From the NCBI RefSeq assembly GCF_015751905.1, contig NZ_JADOUF010000001.1, forward strand, positions 7,812,001 through 7,876,000: a DNA stretch of 64,000 nt, written 5' to 3'. The notes beneath the pieces are model-generated. The model did no database searches and had not been told where the DNA came from. It saw nothing but the letters and a program-made list of their open reading frames with translations. The stretch is from Longispora fulva (GTDB lineage Bacteria > Actinomycetota > Actinomycetes > Mycobacteriales > Micromonosporaceae). The position numbers and the translations under genes are program-made. How positions within the stretch are numbered: position 1 is the stretch's first letter; the number at the start of each line of letters is the position of its first letter. Below, piece by piece: positions 1,967 to 27,198 of the stretch.

Positions 1967-3397
1967 GTGCCGCTTGCCCCCGAACATCAGCTCGCCCGAC
2001 TGGTCGCCGAGCACCAGCGCGACCTGAGGCAGTTGCGGGAATTCGCCGACTACTACGACAACGACCCGCCGTACGCCTACATGGTCCCCGAGCTGATCGC
2101 CGAGCTTGGCGACCGCCTGCAACAGCTCTTGATCAACTGGCCGCGCCTGGTGGTTGACACCGCCGAGGAACGCGCCGACGTGTTGGGCTTCCGTGTCGCC
2201 GGGGTGCCGAAAGCAGACGGCGACCTGTGGGACATCTGGCAGGCGAACAACCTCGACGAGGCCAGCAGCCAGGCGCACACCGATGCGATGGTCATGGGCC
2301 GCGCTTTCATGATCATCAGCGCGAACCCGGAACCGGACCGGCCGCCGCTGATCACCGCCGAATCCCCCCTTGAGACGCACGCGATCCTGGACCCGGCCAC
2401 CCGTCGGGTCACCTCGGCGTACAAGGCATGGACCACCGACGGCGACGGCGACGGGCCGCCGGTGGAGCACGCGACCTTGTACCTGCCGAACGAAACCCGT
2501 TGGTACGTCAAGACATCGGGCGGCGAATGGGTCGATGACCCCGAGTTCGAGGCGGACGAACACCAGCTCGGCCGGGTGCCGGTCGTGCCGATCGTCAACC
2601 GGCCTCGGTTGCGCCGGCCGCTCGGCCAGTCCGAGTTGGTCGACGTGATCCCGCTGGTGAACGGGGCCAACAAGATCGGCACCGACATGATGACCTCGGC
2701 GGAGTTCCACAGCATGCCGCGCCGGTGGGCACTCGGGTTCGGCCCCGAGGATTTCCAAGACGCCCAGGGCCGGCCGGTGTCCACCTGGTCGAAGATCGCC
2801 GGCCGTATCTGGGCGTCGACCCGCACGAGGTCCGAGGGTGCCGAGGTTGGCCAGTTCCCCGAGGCCGATCTCGCGAACTTCCATTCGACGTTGCGGGCGT
2901 TGGCCACCCTGGTCGCCAGTCTCTACGGTCTGCCCCCGACCTACATGGGTTTGAGTTTCGACAATCCACCGAGCGCGGATGGCGTCCGCAGCCTGGAAGC
3001 CCGGTTGATCAAGCGCGTCGAGCGCAAGTCACGGCCGTGGTCGGGGTCGCATGAGGACACCATGCGGTTCGCCGACCGGTTCGTCACCGGCGTCTGGCGG
3101 CCCGAGCTGGTGCGCCTGGAAACGATTTGGCGCGACCCGGCGACGCCGACGCGTGCCCAGGCGTCCGATGCCGCCGTGAAGCTCTACACCTCCGGCATCT
3201 CCACCAAGAGGCAGGCCCGAGAGGATGTTGGCTACACCGTCGAGCAGATCGACCGGATGGAAGCCGACGACGCCGCCGCCCTGGCTTCCGACCCGATCGG
3301 GCAGATGACCCGGGCGCTTTCCGCAGGCCAGGAAGGGGCTTCGGCCCCCGGTTCCGCCGGTTCCGGTAGCACCGGAAGTGCAGGCGGCACCGAGTGA
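1967..3397 (+). CDS. Portal protein, SPP1 gp6-like
   Basis: A 476-residue protein with GTG start. The N-terminus has the WPRLVVDTAEERADVLGF segment, and the centre has DVIPLVNGANKIGTDMMTSA followed by a Trp-rich loop, both typical of actinophage SPP1-type portals. It would form the dodecameric DNA channel at one capsid vertex and dock the terminase. The C-terminus is Gly/Ser/Thr-rich and probably flexible. Its stop overlaps the start of the next gene in a GTGA, suggesting coupled translation. Confidence 0.9.
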   Translation: MPLAPEHQLARLVAEHQRDLRQLREFADYYDNDPPYAYMVPELIAELGDRLQQLLINWPRLVVDTAEERADVLGFRVAGVPKADGDLWDIWQANNLDEASSQAHTDAMVMGRAFMIISANPEPDRPPLITAESPLETHAILDPATRRVTSAYKAWTTDGDGDGPPVEHATLYLPNETRWYVKTSGGEWVDDPEFEADEHQLGRVPVVPIVNRPRLRRPLGQSELVDVIPLVNGANKIGTDMMTSAEFHSMPRRWALGFGPEDFQDAQGRPVSTWSKIAGRIWASTRTRSEGAEVGQFPEADLANFHSTLRALATLVASLYGLPPTYMGLSFDNPPSADGVRSLEARLIKRVERKSRPWSGSHEDTMRFADRFVTGVWRPELVRLETIWRDPATPTRAQASDAAVKLYTSGISTKRQAREDVGYTVEQIDRMEADDAAALASDPIGQMTRALSAGQEGASAPGSAGSGSTGSAGGTE

Positions 3398-4377
3398 GCG
3401 TCGTCGCCGTCGCCGAGTCCCACTACCGCCGCCAGGTCGCCCTAGCGCGCCGGGTGGCCGAGGAGTCGGCGGCGGCATGGCGGACCCTCGACCCGCTGCG
3501 CCTTGACGCCTCGTGGGCCGCCGAGTCCGACCGGCTGCTCGCCCTGGTCACCGGCGGCCAGGCCCTCGCCGCCGCCGACGCCGACGGCTACGTCACTGCC
3601 GCCCTGTCCGCCCAGCACCTCGACCCGGCCGCCGCCGGTGCCGTCAACGCCCGCAGCCTGGCCGGCGTGGCGTCCGACGGGCGCGGCCTGGCGACCCTGC
3701 TGTACGAGCCGGTGATCGCCGTCAAGACCGCGTTACGGCCGGCGGGCGGGCGGGGCGCGACCGTCGAGAAGGCCATGACCCTCGGCATGCTGCGCCTCGA
3801 CACCATCGTCCGCACCCAGCTCGCCGACGCCGCCCGGGTGGCCGTCGGCGTCGGCGTGGTCGCCCGCCGTTCCGCCGGGGGCTGGGTGCGGATGCTGTCT
3901 ACCCCGTCGTGCGCCCGGTGCATCGTGCTGGCCGGGAAGTTCTACCGGTGGAGTTCCGGTTTTCTGAGGCACCCCCGGTGTGACTGCCGGCATATTCCGG
4001 CGGCCGAGAACACGGCCGGGGACCTGCGCACCGACCCCGGGAAGTACTTCCGGTCGCTGCCGGAGCCCGAGCAGAACAAGCTGTTGGGCCGTTCCGGCGC
4101 GCAGGCGGTGCGCGACGGCGCGGACCTCGCCGCGGTCGTCAACGCCCGCCGGGGCATGACCACCACCGCCGCGTTCGGCCGGACGTTCGCCACCACCCGC
4201 GAGGGCACCACCCGGCGGGGACTGTTCGCCGGCTACACCACCGACGACCAGGGCCGGCTACAACGCCGGACCGGGCCGCCGCCGCGCTGGCGGCTGATGC
4301 CCGAGCAGATCTACACCGACGCCACCGACCGCGACGACGCGATCCGGCTGCTTCGCCATCACGGCTATCTGCGCTGA
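3394..4377 (+). CDS. MuF-like minor head protein or capsid maturation protein
   Basis: A 327-residue protein starting at a GTG that overlaps the portal stop. The N-terminal half is Ala-rich helix. Residues about 170-200 carry a Cys cluster (CARCIVLAGKFYRW, then HPRCDCRH) of the kind found in MuF/VG15-like minor capsid proteins that follow the portal gene in many actinophages. Such proteins enter the procapsid and are often annotated as capsid maturation proteases. No protease active site can be assigned here by eye, so the protease label is doubtful and I prefer minor head protein. A Zn-binding role for the Cys/His cluster is an inference. Confidence 0.75.
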   Translation: MSVVAVAESHYRRQVALARRVAEESAAAWRTLDPLRLDASWAAESDRLLALVTGGQALAAADADGYVTAALSAQHLDPAAAGAVNARSLAGVASDGRGLATLLYEPVIAVKTALRPAGGRGATVEKAMTLGMLRLDTIVRTQLADAARVAVGVGVVARRSAGGWVRMLSTPSCARCIVLAGKFYRWSSGFLRHPRCDCRHIPAAENTAGDLRTDPGKYFRSLPEPEQNKLLGRSGAQAVRDGADLAAVVNARRGMTTTAAFGRTFATTREGTTRRGLFAGYTTDDQGRLQRRTGPPPRWRLMPEQIYTDATDRDDAIRLLRHHGYLR

Positions 4378-4430: not shown

Positions 4431-5045
4431 TTGAACACCTCGACTGTCGCCGACTGGTTCCGGCTCACCCGGCACGACGCCCCCGCCGACACCCCGCCGG
4501 CCCCCGACCCGCAGGTCGACGACGACCCGGCCGACGGCGACGACGCGGCGGTCGACTGGCAGGCCGAGGCCGGCAAGTGGAAGAAGCTCAGCCGCACCAA
4601 CGAGCAGCGTGCCAAGGACAACGCCGCCGCCGCGACCCGACTGGCAGAGCTTGAGGCCGCCCAGCAGACCGACGCCGAACGGCTCACCCAGCGCGCGGCC
4701 GACGCCGAGGCCCGAGCCCAGGCCGCCACCGCCCGCGCCGTGGTCGCCGAGGTGAAAGCCCTCGCCGGCATGTTCGCCGACCCCGACGACGCCGTTGCCC
4801 TGCTCGGCAGCCTCGACGGCTACGCCGATGCGGCTGGCGACATCGACACCGACGCCATCGGCGCCGACCTGGCCGACCTGCTCGTCCGCAAACCCCACCT
4901 CGCCAAGCCGGCCGGGCCGCGCACCCCGCGCCCGGACCCTGGCGTCGGCTCGCGCGGGGACGCCCCCGAGGTCGACTACCGCACCGCCGCCCCGGCCGTG
5001 TTCGCCGACGAGCTGGCCAAGTACGGGCTACGGCCCCGGTCGTGA
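4431..5045 (+). CDS. Head scaffolding protein
   Basis: A 204-residue protein from TTG with GGGAG 6 bases upstream. It has an acidic Pro/Asp-rich N-terminal third, then a long coiled coil at residues 38-108 rich in Ala, Glu and Arg, and a small C-terminal domain: the usual make-up of a phage scaffold. It would direct capsid assembly and be removed before packaging. Its first 16 residues match the start of the major capsid protein in the pattern MNTSxxxxWFRLxRHD, which suggests a shared cleavage or targeting tag. The next gene, a Prp-like protease, overlaps its stop (GTGA). Confidence 0.82.
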   Translation: MNTSTVADWFRLTRHDAPADTPPAPDPQVDDDPADGDDAAVDWQAEAGKWKKLSRTNEQRAKDNAAAATRLAELEAAQQTDAERLTQRAADAEARAQAATARAVVAEVKALAGMFADPDDAVALLGSLDGYADAAGDIDTDAIGADLADLLVRKPHLAKPAGPRTPRPDPGVGSRGDAPEVDYRTAAPAVFADELAKYGLRPRS

Positions 5046-5239
5046 TCCGGGTCCGGGCCGAACTCGGCGACGGCCGGACCGTGATCGAGGTCGACGGGCA
5101 CGAGCAGCACGCCGCCGACGGGGTGGTGTGCGCGGCGGTCTCTGCGATCACCCAAACGGCGTTGCTCGGCCTGCTGGCCGTCGCCGACACCCATCCCGAC
5201 CTCGTGACGGTCGACATCACCCACCTGGAGCAACCTTGA
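5042..5239 (+). CDS. Small Prp-like cysteine protease
   Basis: A 65-residue protein from GTG overlapping the scaffold stop. Residues 17-36 contain VDGHEQH and then GVVCAAVSAI, matching the core of the Prp (DUF464) family, whose catalytic His sits in GHA and whose Cys sits in the (D)IVCAxxSA segment. Here the pair is His20 and Cys30. Staphylococcal Prp removes the N-terminal extension of ribosomal protein L27 and also trims scaffold and capsid of phage 80alpha. Position between scaffold and capsid fits that role. It is much shorter than cellular Prp (about 105 residues), lacking most of the C-terminal half, so activity is unproven. Confidence 0.65.
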   Translation: MIRVRAELGDGRTVIEVDGHEQHAADGVVCAAVSAITQTALLGLLAVADTHPDLVTVDITHLEQP

Positions 5240-6528
5240 ACACCAGCCCCCGGCCGGCATGGTTCCGGCTCGGCCGCCACGACGTGCGCTCGACGCTGCC
5301 GGCGCCACTGCGCGCGATCATGCAAAACGGCGTCCTCGACCGCGTGTTCCTCGACGCGCTGCTGCCCGACTTCCTGTACCCGGCCATCGCCGACAGCGAG
5401 CCGTGGGCCGGCGGCTTGGGCGACACCAAGACGTTCACCCGCACCGGCCTCATCGCCCCGAACCCCGTGCCGATCACCGGTTCGGACCCGACCCCGCACA
5501 CCTACGGCGTTGAGCAGTGGTCGGTAACGATGGATCAGTACGGCGACACCATCGACACGAACCTCCTGCACTCCGCGATGACCCTGGCGTCGAAGTTCCT
5601 GCGGGACGTGCAGACGCTCGGGATCAACGCGGGGCAGACGCTCAACCAGATCGCCCGCGCCCGGCTCTACGCCGCGTACGGCGGCGGCCGGACCTGGGCG
5701 ACCACCGCGCAGGGCTCGGCCTCGACCACGTGCGTTGTCGCGGACGTGTCCGGGTTCCTGTCCGTGATGGTCAACGGGGTACCGGTCGCGGTGTCGCCGA
5801 CGAACCCGCTGTCGGTCACCGTGGCCGGGGTCGCCAACACCGTCACGGCCGTCAACGTCGGCGCCAAGACCCTGACCCTGGGCACCGCCGTCACGCAGGC
5901 GATCGGTGACGCCGTGGTCGCCGCGAACGCCCCGGTGTCGGTACGTCCCGGCAGCAAGGCCACAGCGTTCAACCTCACCGGTTCGGACGTGGCGACGTTC
6001 AAGCTGTTCCGGGCGGCGGTCACCCGGCTGCGCAAGCAGAACGTTCCGAGCAACGGCGGCTACTACACCGCGCACATCAGCCCGGACACCGAGGCGGCGC
6101 TGTTCGACGACGCCGATTTCAAGCAGGCCGCACAGGGCCGGGTCGACTCGCCGATCTACCGGGATCTGTCGATCGGTCGTTTCGGTGGTATCGACTGGGT
6201 GAGGAACCTGGAGTCGCCGACCGTGACGGTGGGGTCGGTGACCGTGCAGCGGCCGATCGTGACCGGCGCGGGAGTCCTGGTCTCGGCGCCGTTCGAGGGC
6301 ATGGGCTCGCTACTCGCCGGGACCGGCACCGAGGACGTGCCCGACATCCGGATGATCGGCCCGGCCACCGGCGCGCAGGTCGCGCTGATTGTGCGCCCGC
6401 CGCAGGACCGTCTCCAGCAGCAGGTGTCAACCACCTGGTCGTGGGTTGGTGACTTCGGCGTCCCTTCTGACTCGGTGACCGGCGACTCCGCGCAGTTCAA
6501 GCGGGCCGTCGTCGTCGAGCACGCCTGA
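5236..6528 (+). CDS. Major capsid protein
   Basis: A 430-residue protein. I choose the TTG at 5236, which overlaps the preceding stop as TTGA and has GGAG 5 bases upstream; the frame is open well before it but this start gives an N-terminus matching the scaffold. Sequence features are those of P22-like/HK97-fold capsids: an N-terminal arm, a central Val/Thr-rich beta insertion at about residues 155-215, and a conserved region with RPIVTGAGVLVSAPFEG. The first 16 residues share MNTSxxxxWFRLxRHD with the scaffold. It would build the icosahedral shell after scaffold release, probably with N-terminal trimming. Confidence 0.85.
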   Translation: MNTSPRPAWFRLGRHDVRSTLPAPLRAIMQNGVLDRVFLDALLPDFLYPAIADSEPWAGGLGDTKTFTRTGLIAPNPVPITGSDPTPHTYGVEQWSVTMDQYGDTIDTNLLHSAMTLASKFLRDVQTLGINAGQTLNQIARARLYAAYGGGRTWATTAQGSASTTCVVADVSGFLSVMVNGVPVAVSPTNPLSVTVAGVANTVTAVNVGAKTLTLGTAVTQAIGDAVVAANAPVSVRPGSKATAFNLTGSDVATFKLFRAAVTRLRKQNVPSNGGYYTAHISPDTEAALFDDADFKQAAQGRVDSPIYRDLSIGRFGGIDWVRNLESPTVTVGSVTVQRPIVTGAGVLVSAPFEGMGSLLAGTGTEDVPDIRMIGPATGAQVALIVRPPQDRLQQQVSTTWSWVGDFGVPSDSVTGDSAQFKRAVVVEHA

Positions 6529-24805: not shown

Positions 24806-24878
24806 TCGAAAGTCGTCGATTTACGACACAGTGAATACGCGCCGCACCTGTGGCGCACCTCGTGAAGGAGGCCCGTTC

Positions 24879-25142
24879 ATGTACCCCCCAATGTTCGGCC
24901 CGGCGCAGCCGGACCCCCTGATGCCGGCATCCCGCCTGTTCCCCCGGGCGCTGCCAATCGTGCCCGGCAACGACGAGCAGCCCACTGACGCCCGTCCCTT
25001 CGTGCTGCGGGGCACGGTGCCCGGCATCGTCACGGCAAAGCACCGCACACCGGCCACGCTGAAGAAGCACAGCAACCCGACCAGCCTCGACGGCCCCAAG
25101 GCTGGCACCAAGAACGACGAGTACACGACCCCCGACGACTGA
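24879..25142 (+). CDS. Graspetide precursor peptide
   Basis: An 87-residue peptide from ATG 24879 with GAAGGAGG 7 bases before; a longer frame from 24831 lacks a ribosome site. Residues 38-44 (ARPFVLR) match the recognition element of ATP-grasp-modified RiPP leaders. The C-terminal part, about residues 64-87, is rich in Thr, Ser, Asp, Glu and Lys, as needed for side-chain ester or amide cross-links, and contains one Asp-Gly (71-72) in TSLDGPKAG, the usual kind of site for aspartimide formation. No Cys. The ligase gene overlaps its stop (TGATG), so peptide and enzyme are co-expressed. Confidence 0.85.
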   Translation: MYPPMFGPAQPDPLMPASRLFPRALPIVPGNDEQPTDARPFVLRGTVPGIVTAKHRTPATLKKHSNPTSLDGPKAGTKNDEYTTPDD

Positions 25143-26095
25143 TGACCATCCTTATCATCAGCGCGCGCGGCGACTGGTCGGCTGAAGTTGTGGCCGATCA
25201 GCTCGCCGCGCGCGGCGTCGACTGCATCCGCATCGATCCGGGGGAGTTCCCCCGCGATGCGCGCCTCGCCGCCCGCCTGGGCGCGGGGTGGTCGGGGACG
25301 TTCACCGGGAACGGCGGCCCCCGGCTCGCGCTGGAGGACGTCACGGCCGTGTACTACCGCCGCCCGAGTGACTTCACCATGCCCGACGGCATGTCCGGCC
25401 CCGAGCTGGGATTCGCCCGCTCACAGGCCCGGGTCGGCGTCGGTGGTGTCCTGGCCTCGCTGCCGGTCAAGTGGATCAACCACCCCGGGGCACTGGCTGA
25501 TGTCGAGTACAAGCCGCGCCAACTCGCCGCCGCCGCCGACGTCGGGTTCATCGTCCCTCCGACGCTGATCACCAACGACGCCGCCGCTGTCCGCGAGTTC
25601 GCCGAGGCGACGGGCGATCTGGTGGTCAAGCCGCTCGCCGACCCCATCGTCGCCGAGGCCGGCGACTACACCCCCGTATGGACCCGGCGCGTCACCGCCG
25701 CCGACCTGGTCGACCTCGCCGGGGTGGAGACCACCGCCCACCTGTTCCAAGCATGGGTGCCCAAAGCCTTCGAGGTCCGCCTCACCGTCGTCGGCCGCCG
25801 GCTGTTCCCCGCCGCCATCCACGCCGGTTCCGACGCCGCTCGGGTGGACTGGCGGGCCGACTACGACTCGCTGACGTACGAGACGATCGCCTGCCCCGCG
25901 CCCGTCGTAGCCTCGGTGGCGAGGTTTCAACAGCGGTTCGGCCTGATCTACGGCGCGTATGACTTCGTCGTCACGCCTGATGGCCGCTGGGTGTTTCTGG
26001 AGTGCAACGGCGGCGGCCAGTTTGGCTGGCTCACCGAGGAACTTGACCTACCCATACCGGCGGCCATCGCCGACGAACTCACGGAGGCACCATGA
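25142..26095 (+). CDS. ATP-grasp ligase for RiPP cross-linking
   Basis: A 317-residue protein in the MvdC/MvdD-like, SAV_5884-type group of ATP-grasp peptide maturases. N-terminal pre-grasp domain with VYYRRPSDF (about residues 70-78), central NHPGALADVEYKPRQL, a lysine of the nucleotide site in DLVVKPLADP, then YDFVVTPDGRWVFLECNGGG near residue 280 with the metal-binding Glu and Asn. It should activate Asp/Glu side chains in the precursor and join them to Thr/Ser or Lys. It is coupled by overlap to the precursor and to the methyltransferase. No protease or transporter gene is adjacent. Confidence 0.88.
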   Translation: MTILIISARGDWSAEVVADQLAARGVDCIRIDPGEFPRDARLAARLGAGWSGTFTGNGGPRLALEDVTAVYYRRPSDFTMPDGMSGPELGFARSQARVGVGGVLASLPVKWINHPGALADVEYKPRQLAAAADVGFIVPPTLITNDAAAVREFAEATGDLVVKPLADPIVAEAGDYTPVWTRRVTAADLVDLAGVETTAHLFQAWVPKAFEVRLTVVGRRLFPAAIHAGSDAARVDWRADYDSLTYETIACPAPVVASVARFQQRFGLIYGAYDFVVTPDGRWVFLECNGGGQFGWLTEELDLPIPAAIADELTEAP

Positions 26096-27198
26096 CTGAC
26101 TGGCACGCCCAAGCCCGCGCCCTCGCCGCCCGGCTGACGGCTGACGGCGCGCTCACTGACCCGGCCTGGCGGGCAGCGATCGAGGCGACCCCACGCCACC
26201 GGTTCGTGCCCGAGGTCCCCGTCGAGGACGCATACACCGACGACGCCCTCGTCACCCAGACCCGGCCCGGCGACCTCGGCGGCGGCGCGTTCATCGAGAT
26301 CCCGACATCCTCGGCCAGCGCACCCGAGGCCGTCGCGGTGATGCTCGAAAACCTCAACATCACCGACGGGGCCCGGGTGCTGGAGATCGGGACCGGCACC
26401 GGATACAACGCCGCCCTACTGTGTCACCGCCTCGGCCCCGACCGGGTGTACTCCGTCGACCTGGACCCGGCGCTAGTGGACCGCGCGCGCGATGTGCTGG
26501 CCGACCTCGACTATCACCCGACGCTGAAGGCCGCCGACGGATACGCCGGGCTCCCCAGCGCGGCACCGTTCGACGCCATCCTCGCCACCTGCTCAGTAAC
26601 CCAGATCCCCCCGGCCTGGATCACTCAACTCGCCCCCGGCGGGCGCATCGTCGCGCCCCTACACGGCGGAACCGACGCCGCGCTCATGGTCCTCACCAAA
26701 ACCGCCCCCGACGAAGTAGTCGGGCACTTCGACCCACACCGCATGTCGTTCATGCCCCTACGCCCCCGCCTCGACGACCCGCTCGCCGGGCCTCGCGCCA
26801 GCACCCACGGCCGGATGCCCCACTACGGCACCACCACCCTCGACCCGGAACGCCTGACCAACCCCGACGACGAACTCGCCTTGTTCCTCCACCTGCACAT
26901 CCCGGGACTGTCCATCGGCACCACAGAGGGCGGACCCACCGGCAAGGCAGTCACCATCTCCGACGCCGCATCACTCGCCGAGGTCCCGCTCATCCCCGCC
27001 GGCCCCGGCCGCTGGACCGCGCTACAACGGGGCCCCGCCCGACTCTGGGACACCGTCGAGCACGCCGCCGCCCTCTGGGACACACTCGGCCGCCCCGGAC
27101 GCGACCGCCTCGGCATCACCGCCCTCGACGACCCCGACCGCCAATACATCTGGCTCGATGACCCCGACGGGCCCTACTCCTGGCCCATGCCGCTGTAG
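26092..27198 (+). CDS. PIMT-like methyltransferase of the graspetide cluster
   Basis: A 368-residue protein whose ATG overlaps the ligase stop. Residues 1-210 resemble protein-L-isoaspartate O-methyltransferase: RHRFVPE, the TSSASAPEAVAVMLE region, SAM motif VLEIGTGTGYNAALL (about residues 89-103) and VYSVDLDPALVDRAR. A C-terminal domain of about 150 residues is extra compared with cellular PIMT and is typical of methyltransferases that travel with ATP-grasp RiPP ligases. In characterised systems such as fuscimiditide the enzyme methylates an Asp, which then closes to aspartimide. The same reaction is expected here on Asp71. Confidence 0.88.
   Translation: MTDWHAQARALAARLTADGALTDPAWRAAIEATPRHRFVPEVPVEDAYTDDALVTQTRPGDLGGGAFIEIPTSSASAPEAVAVMLENLNITDGARVLEIGTGTGYNAALLCHRLGPDRVYSVDLDPALVDRARDVLADLDYHPTLKAADGYAGLPSAAPFDAILATCSVTQIPPAWITQLAPGGRIVAPLHGGTDAALMVLTKTAPDEVVGHFDPHRMSFMPLRPRLDDPLAGPRASTHGRMPHYGTTTLDPERLTNPDDELALFLHLHIPGLSIGTTEGGPTGKAVTISDAASLAEVPLIPAGPGRWTALQRGPARLWDTVEHAAALWDTLGRPGRDRLGITALDDPDRQYIWLDDPDGPYSWPMPL

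Follow-up and report, generated by a model that had tools for sequence, protein, structure and literature searches.

A phage head module at the start of a 64-kb stretch of the Longispora fulva genome (hereafter the window, positions 7,812,001-7,876,000 of 8.68 Mb) encodes, between scaffold and major capsid protein, a 65-residue protein that we regard with good confidence as a phage-encoded, reduced cysteine protease of the Prp family, which would trim 15 residues off the tagged scaffold and capsid and also have a licensing role. This reading is carried by homology to Prp, the Gly-His and Cys residues of the catalytic dyad, the gene order, the tags on both head proteins, the joint presence of tag and Prp across relatives, and a host genome that contains no other Prp match.

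Head module and the common tag of scaffold and capsid

According to Pfam and PHROG matches, the module runs in the order large terminase, portal, VG15-type minor head protein, scaffold, short Prp and capsid (Table 1). The overlaps of stop and start codons read GTGA between the scaffold and Prp genes and TTGA between the Prp and capsid genes and, thus, translation of all three is probably coupled. The TTG starts of scaffold and capsid are each preceded by GGAG five bases upstream. Apart from its PHROG assignment, the capsid scores 38.2 bits (E 1e-9) against the N4-gp56 family TIGR04387, under the cut-off of 60, and has no Pfam match up to E 1. Its AlphaFold2 model is poor (mean pLDDT 61.4, with residues 1-16, 32-120 and others below 50), and a Foldseek search with this model placed phage capsids at ranks 1-6, none of them at E 0.001 or better. 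Elsewhere in the window, positions 24831-27198 hold a graspetide-type peptide cluster with an ATP-grasp ribosomal peptide maturase (TIGR04187, over the cut-off) and a PCMT-like methyltransferase (TIGR04188, under the cut-off); a 103-aa ORF upstream, which has no NCBIfam match, could be the precursor.

Table 1. Positions of the head-module genes, tags and putative catalytic codons in the window.
Feature	Position	Strand	Remarks
VG15-kind minor head protein	3394..4377	+	PF25310 28.3 bits, cut-off 26; phrog_1522; outside the tag system
Head scaffolding protein	4431..5045	+	204 aa; TTG start; phrog_4708 'head scaffolding protein', E 8.9e-19
Scaffold tag WFRLTRHD	4455..4478	+	scaffold residues 9-16; predicted cut after His15
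Short Prp-like cysteine protease (putative)	5042..5239	+	65 aa; GTG start overlapping scaffold stop; PF04327 31.1 bits
His20 codon, putative catalytic	5099..5101	+	invariant in 38-row alignment
Cys30 codon, putative catalytic nucleophile	5129..5131	+	invariant in 38-row alignment
Major capsid protein	5236..6528	+	430 aa; TTG start overlapping Prp stop; phrog_1357 'major head protein', E 7.2e-17
Capsid tag WFRLGRHD	5260..5283	+	capsid residues 9-16; predicted cut after His15

The scaffold begins with MNTSTVADWFRLTRHD and the capsid with MNTSPRPAWFRLGRHD, so that 11 of the first 16 residues are identical. An earlier note on this DNA had described a common N-terminal tag on two otherwise unrelated proteins, and both parts of this description hold: the best ungapped match between the 30-residue N-termini scores 60, a value reached by none of 3000 shuffles, and past the first 30 residues there is no similarity (score 32, equalled by 18 of 40 shuffles). 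Among the ORFs of at least 20 aa on both strands of the 64-kb window, only these two tags fit the pattern W-(x)-F/Y-x-L/I/V-x-R-H/F.

A short Prp-like protein with a conserved dyad

The 65-aa ORF matches PF04327 (Peptidase_Prp) with 31.1 bits against a cut-off of 27 (E 2.9e-7) and phrog_4478, a 'peptidase', with E 7.2e-6; against the NCBIfam equivalogs for ribosomal-processing Prp its best score is 19.1 bits versus a cut-off of 136. The His and Cys core proposed in the earlier note is present as His20 and Cys30, and the Gly-His and Cys of the dyad recur in 38 of 38 aligned rows and in all 88 distinct intact-frame sequences of the actinophage type (86 scored by script and two read from its output). 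Among the 86 scored sequences, the spacing between His and Cys is 10 in 83 and 11 in three, and the residue after the His is Glu in 79 and Asp in seven. Two further positions of the S. aureus enzyme (SaPrp) were compared, with three of the 89 distinct sequences left unscored by the script: the place of Ser38, four residues after the Cys, holds Ser in 71 sequences and Thr, a relaxed match, in 15, and that of Asp31, three residues before the Cys, holds Gly in 83 and Ser in three, so that the Asp is lacking. The D31A variant of SaPrp is described as inactive (PMC9405229).

The short form is shared by a whole lineage: all 89 distinct sequences of the actinophage type are 62-65 aa long (L039 with a broken frame), and a reading as truncated pseudogene was rejected on these grounds. 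The proposal that the phage carries its own short Prp was thus borne out, the short form being a conserved one and no local truncation. The AlphaFold2 model of the 65-aa protein (pLDDT 92.9) consists of two strands, one long helix and a C-terminal stretch (beta-beta-alpha). With this model Foldseek found no significant match in the PDB; the highest TM-score (query) among the 50 matches listed, 0.50, belongs to the S. mutans Prp 2g0j, at E 4.3. The first part of the actinophage profile matches the N-terminal part of solved and phage full-length Prps, and its last third matches, weakly (1.5 to 8.2 bits), the C-terminal helix-strand of 2g0i, 4peo, 2idl, the Prps of phages PLgT-1 and BL3 and an Enterococcus host Prp; phi9805 scores below 0 with this last third, and Fontainebleau has no second match. 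The alignment leaves out the middle of the full-length Prps. From these alignments, the short Prp seems best read as an internal deletion of the central beta-hairpin, and less probably as a C-terminal truncation with a new end.

The lack of an Asp31 equivalent in so short a Prp also bears on a different reading, in which the protein would bind the N-termini of scaffold and capsid as a chaperone, with the tag as a docking signal, and would not cut them or need to. This agrees with phage 80alpha, in which, according to PMC5744158, precleaved scaffold gives no phage and uncleavable scaffold as well as uncleavable or precleaved capsid are viable, while the N-terminal sequence of the scaffold is essential. 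However, a pure binder would not be expected to preserve the putative catalytic Gly-His and Cys, which all 88 distinct intact sequences contain, and we consider docking alone unlikely.

Joint occurrence of tag and Prp

The relatives of the module were collected from IMG/VR scans (the best 80 matches each), genome contigs, the Streptomyces phage Kromp and locus L098. They comprise 150 scaffold-Prp-capsid loci, 95 of them distinct, with the window copy and Kromp included; this count was made after removal of six loci whose scaffold is cut and two that lack a capsid match, and three without a Prp match stand outside it (L062 and L097, both cut by the contig end, and L084, which is phiKX1 itself). 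The genome matches L250 and L252 repeat the Prp sequences of L030 and L078 and are not independent. The tag pattern was fixed after the first 92 loci had been seen, a first version (F first, L third, Arg not required) having missed some capsids with Tyr or Ile.

Among the matches listed, all 95 distinct loci have the tag (W)F-x-L-x-R-H on the capsid, and 91 of them have it on the scaffold as well; in three of the others the scaffold N-terminus is off the contig, and the last one (L047) has the scaffold tag in another frame. The alignment of N-termini across relatives proposed in the earlier note therefore finds the tag kept in both proteins. The Arg at +4 is required by the pattern and lacking in no capsid, and five different codons encode it in each of the two genes, which points to selection on the protein. 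At +5, the 91 pairs have His in 90 capsids and 84 scaffolds and Phe in one and seven, respectively, followed by Asp, Ala, Asn or Met in capsids and by Asp, Glu, Asn or Ala in scaffolds. The stretch that precedes the tag varies in length, as far as these crude lengths tell.

Several loci deserve mention in their own right. The capsids of L118 (5216-5297) and L119 (5216-5282) carry tandem tags, WFRLDRHD and WFDLGRHD, before the conserved capsid start. In L039 the Prp frame is interrupted, and in L047 the tag and body of the scaffold lie in different frames; these breaks are either assembly errors or decay. A co-variation of tag type between the two proteins (W-F versus not W-F; raw counts 73/12/5/1, Fisher 2.4e-10) was set aside because only two independent pairs remain on the 88-row capsid tree (sign test median p 0.5).

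Scaffold and capsid genes flank the Prp gene in the 95 distinct loci that were counted. This constant position, together with the conserved core residues, weighs against the view that the VG15-type protein matures the head and that the Prp gene is a passenger. The names given to the VG15-type gene favour that view, since its PHROG match (phrog_1522, E 1.4e-75) is called head maturation protease and the gene at the same place in Kromp is annotated 'capsid maturation protease'. However, the Pfam families matched are VG15 and, under the cut-off, P_C, neither of which is named a protease, and NCBIfam gives no match up to E 1; we consider this view very improbable.

The nearest relatives found without Prp are phiKX1-type capsids (Komagataeibacter), which align with the window capsid at 37% identity; the Prp matches obtained in the phage collection do not include the named phages phiKX1/2. 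A Prp profile search of 80 such Prp-less loci gave no match up to E 10, with at least 3 kb of sequence upstream of the capsid available in only 55 of them. None of the 80 shows the tag pattern in the capsid frame between 40 residues ahead of the capsid start and 22 residues past it. The tag is likewise absent from 62 scaffold candidates of these loci, which were picked mechanically and some of which are clearly other ORFs. The Prp-less capsids start with M/V-x-I-x-x-F/L-P in 78 of 80 cases (near variants in L165 and L243), that is, about where the tag would end: from Asp16 to QNG in the window capsid there are 17 residues, as there are from Met1 to QQG in phiKX1. Since the Prp-less capsids lack the tag and this spacing is equal, the tag looks to have extended the N-terminus of a type of capsid that is able to do without it. 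The comparison supports the notion that tag and Prp go together across relatives, and it is one evolutionary contrast, between Prp-bearing capsids and one Prp-less lineage, not many.

It also bears on whether the shared N-terminus could be a scaffold-capsid contact, a packaging element or a recent duplication of the 5' end, unrelated to Prp. The scaffold and capsid genes of the window do share their first nine bases and the same GGAG spacing, in line with such an origin; yet the absence of the tag from all 80 Prp-less relatives, its retention with varied codons in 95 distinct loci, and the Prp-type sites in the same places of Prp-bearing Firmicutes-type phages (see below) argue against it, and we regard this as the least probable reading of all.

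The host genome contains no PF04327 match besides the 65-aa ORF, and its L27 starts with MAHKKG, without an N-terminal extension. PF04327 matches were found in two of 394 genomes of the class, namely that of Longispora fulva and L098, which has the same scaffold-Prp-capsid arrangement with the tags WFSITRHD and WSFDLARHD; the actinophage Prp profile matches in three of 397 genomes of the order, Longispora fulva included. All 13 genome contigs with a related capsid carry actinobacterial names. A scaffold search of the phage collection returned Kromp alone, whose gp5-gp7 (MH744420) are the same three genes in the same order, with both head proteins tagged. The Kromp gp6, annotated 'protease', is 80% identical to the window Prp over 60 residues, and the capsids are 55% identical; the annotation shown mentions neither tag nor Prp.

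Predicted cut site, proposed mechanism and comparison with known Prp systems

Full-length Prps occur in Firmicutes phages, and 13 phage records around Prp matches were examined, two of which, OR846610 (L248) and MT836103 (L257), are filed as phages, are in fact host rplU-prp-rpmA (L21-Prp-L27) fragments and were not counted. OR844993 (Staphylococcus phage SA 1306 Kay), with a 100% match to a 42-residue S. aureus Prp fragment, may be another such fragment. The remaining 11 records do not count as independent, since phi9805, phiS11 and phiS13 nearly duplicate one another and PLgT-1 and TP712 do so too; for TP712 and the MT records, the scaffold or capsid gene was identified by position or PHROG instead of annotation. 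Within these limits, all 11 capsids bear a Prp-type site, as do 10 of the 11 scaffolds, the exception being MT836218 (L258:2544-3339), with MNLQMF↓A on the capsid (arrows mark the putative cut) and a scaffold without site. Thus, a protease without a shared tag, the case named beforehand as speaking against the proposal, was not found among the actinophage-type loci and was found once among the 11 records with full-length Prp. To our knowledge, cleavage has been demonstrated for none of these Firmicutes phage sites. The cuts known from PMC9405229 and PMC5744158 are those of 80alpha and L27 only.

Two side observations come from these records. In MT836159 (L259:4447-5400), which is metagenomic, a full-length Prp is fused in frame to a phrog_13908 part (function unknown; taken as scaffold from its position). 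A DLQLF↓A site lies close to where the two parts join, and the next gene, the capsid, carries FNIQLF↓A; from its sequence, this looks like a self-releasing protease-scaffold. In Brochothrix phage BL3 (L246:9160), the major tail protein starts with a Prp-type site, KMDLQKF↓A, and Prp may there trim tail as well as head proteins.

As in the actinophage module, the phages Oenococcus phi9805, Lactococcus PLgT-1, Brochothrix BL3 and Acutalibacter Fontainebleau encode Prp in the head module and have sites on scaffold and capsid; two of their Prps were scanned, and both match phrog_4478 'peptidase'. Unlike the actinophage type, their Prp gene precedes the scaffold gene, their enzymes are 95-101 aa long, include the middle part and read D-I-V-C or N-I-V-C up to the Cys, and their sites are classical, L-Q-x-F↓A or ↓D. 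The full-length Fontainebleau Prp has Asn at the place of Asp31. Some sites bridge the classical motif and the actinophage tag: the PLgT-1 capsid (F-N-L-Q-R-F↓A) has the P2 Arg and the Fontainebleau site (F-N-L-Q-L-F↓D) the P1' Asp of the tag, and the L071 scaffold tag reads F-D-L-A-R-F↓D. The claim that the phage enzyme cuts a different tag needs amending: the tag shared by scaffold and capsid is more readily understood as a divergent version of the known Prp site than as a motif unrelated to it.

The register of the cut was examined with 24 sites: two from 80alpha, 11 from five phages and 11 L27 sites that the author chose among the 22 long L27 entries (none for FlhB) listed in Table 2 of PMC9405229. 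In the column comparison, P1 falls on tag position +5 (sum 2.7, against -5.7 for the next best register), a modest result, as 467 of 5000 column permutations were as good. The 13 phage sites alone, a subset chosen after this first test, gave a sum of 4.7 (next -5.9), with 216 of 5000 permutations as good. The register with P1 on His is, thus, the best match and the sole one with a positive score. The alignment of F-x-L-x-R-H↓D with F-N-L-Q-R-F↓A suggests a cut after His15 in both scaffold and capsid of the window.

Taken together, the short Prp probably trims both head proteins during head assembly. Coupled translation would lead to scaffold, Prp and capsid being made together, and Prp would bind the F-x-L-x-R-H segment at both N-termini and cut after the His (or Phe), at H15↓D16, leaving Asp16 as the new N-terminus of both proteins. 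Before assembly, the tag probably holds scaffold and capsid to a common factor, which would give Prp a licensing or chaperone function in addition to trimming; by analogy with 80alpha, the tag may matter before cleavage as a hold-and-release signal. Catalysis, the exact bond and the licensing role are the parts of this best explanation that we infer. Several features count against this explanation: a P1 His and P1' Asp that differ from the usual Phe↓Ala, the lack of an Asp31 equivalent, a seemingly missing central hairpin, no significant Foldseek match in the PDB, the modest permutation result, the single Prp-less contrast and one scaffold without a site in 11 records.

The system resembles that of S. 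aureus Prp and 80alpha, as portrayed in PMC5744158 and PMC9405229, in the Pfam family and in the same two head proteins being tagged at the N-terminus, as well as in the hydrophobic spacing F/L-x-L-x-x-F/H and in the length removed, predicted as 15 residues here versus 13-14 there. In contrast, the protease is phage-encoded here and host-supplied there, it has 65 aa versus 106, and the site has P2 Arg, P1 His and P1' Asp or Ala versus F-F↓A or H-F↓A; moreover, unlike S. aureus, the Longispora fulva host has neither another Prp match nor an L27 extension. More tentatively, and as something possible rather than probable, the actinophage head module may be self-contained, with a Prp of 62-65 residues without hairpin and Asp31, whose own F-x-L-x-R-H↓D specificity would be set by the acidic residue after His20 (Glu/Asp, versus Ala in the Firmicutes enzymes) pairing with the invariant P2 Arg, and which would cut only tagged scaffold and capsid and have no ribosomal role.

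The gene itself is already annotated, as 'peptidase' in PHROGs (phrog_4478) and as 'protease' in Kromp (gp6). New here are the tag and its connection with the enzyme, along with the reduced form and the host context; in the literature searched, a scope that most subscription papers fall outside, no description was found of a Prp encoded by a phage whose scaffold and capsid are both tagged. The role of Prp trimming in 80alpha is called unclear in PMC5744158. The S. aureus Prp is essential to the host, since it matures L27 as well, so that simple deletion is impossible. Here, the Prp gene belongs to the phage, the host L27 is short and the host has no other Prp match and, thus, deletion and active-site mutants would be possible without touching the ribosome. 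The reduced enzyme would reveal how little of the Prp fold suffices, and the tag and the 65-aa enzyme would form a small, apparently orthogonal tag-removal pair.
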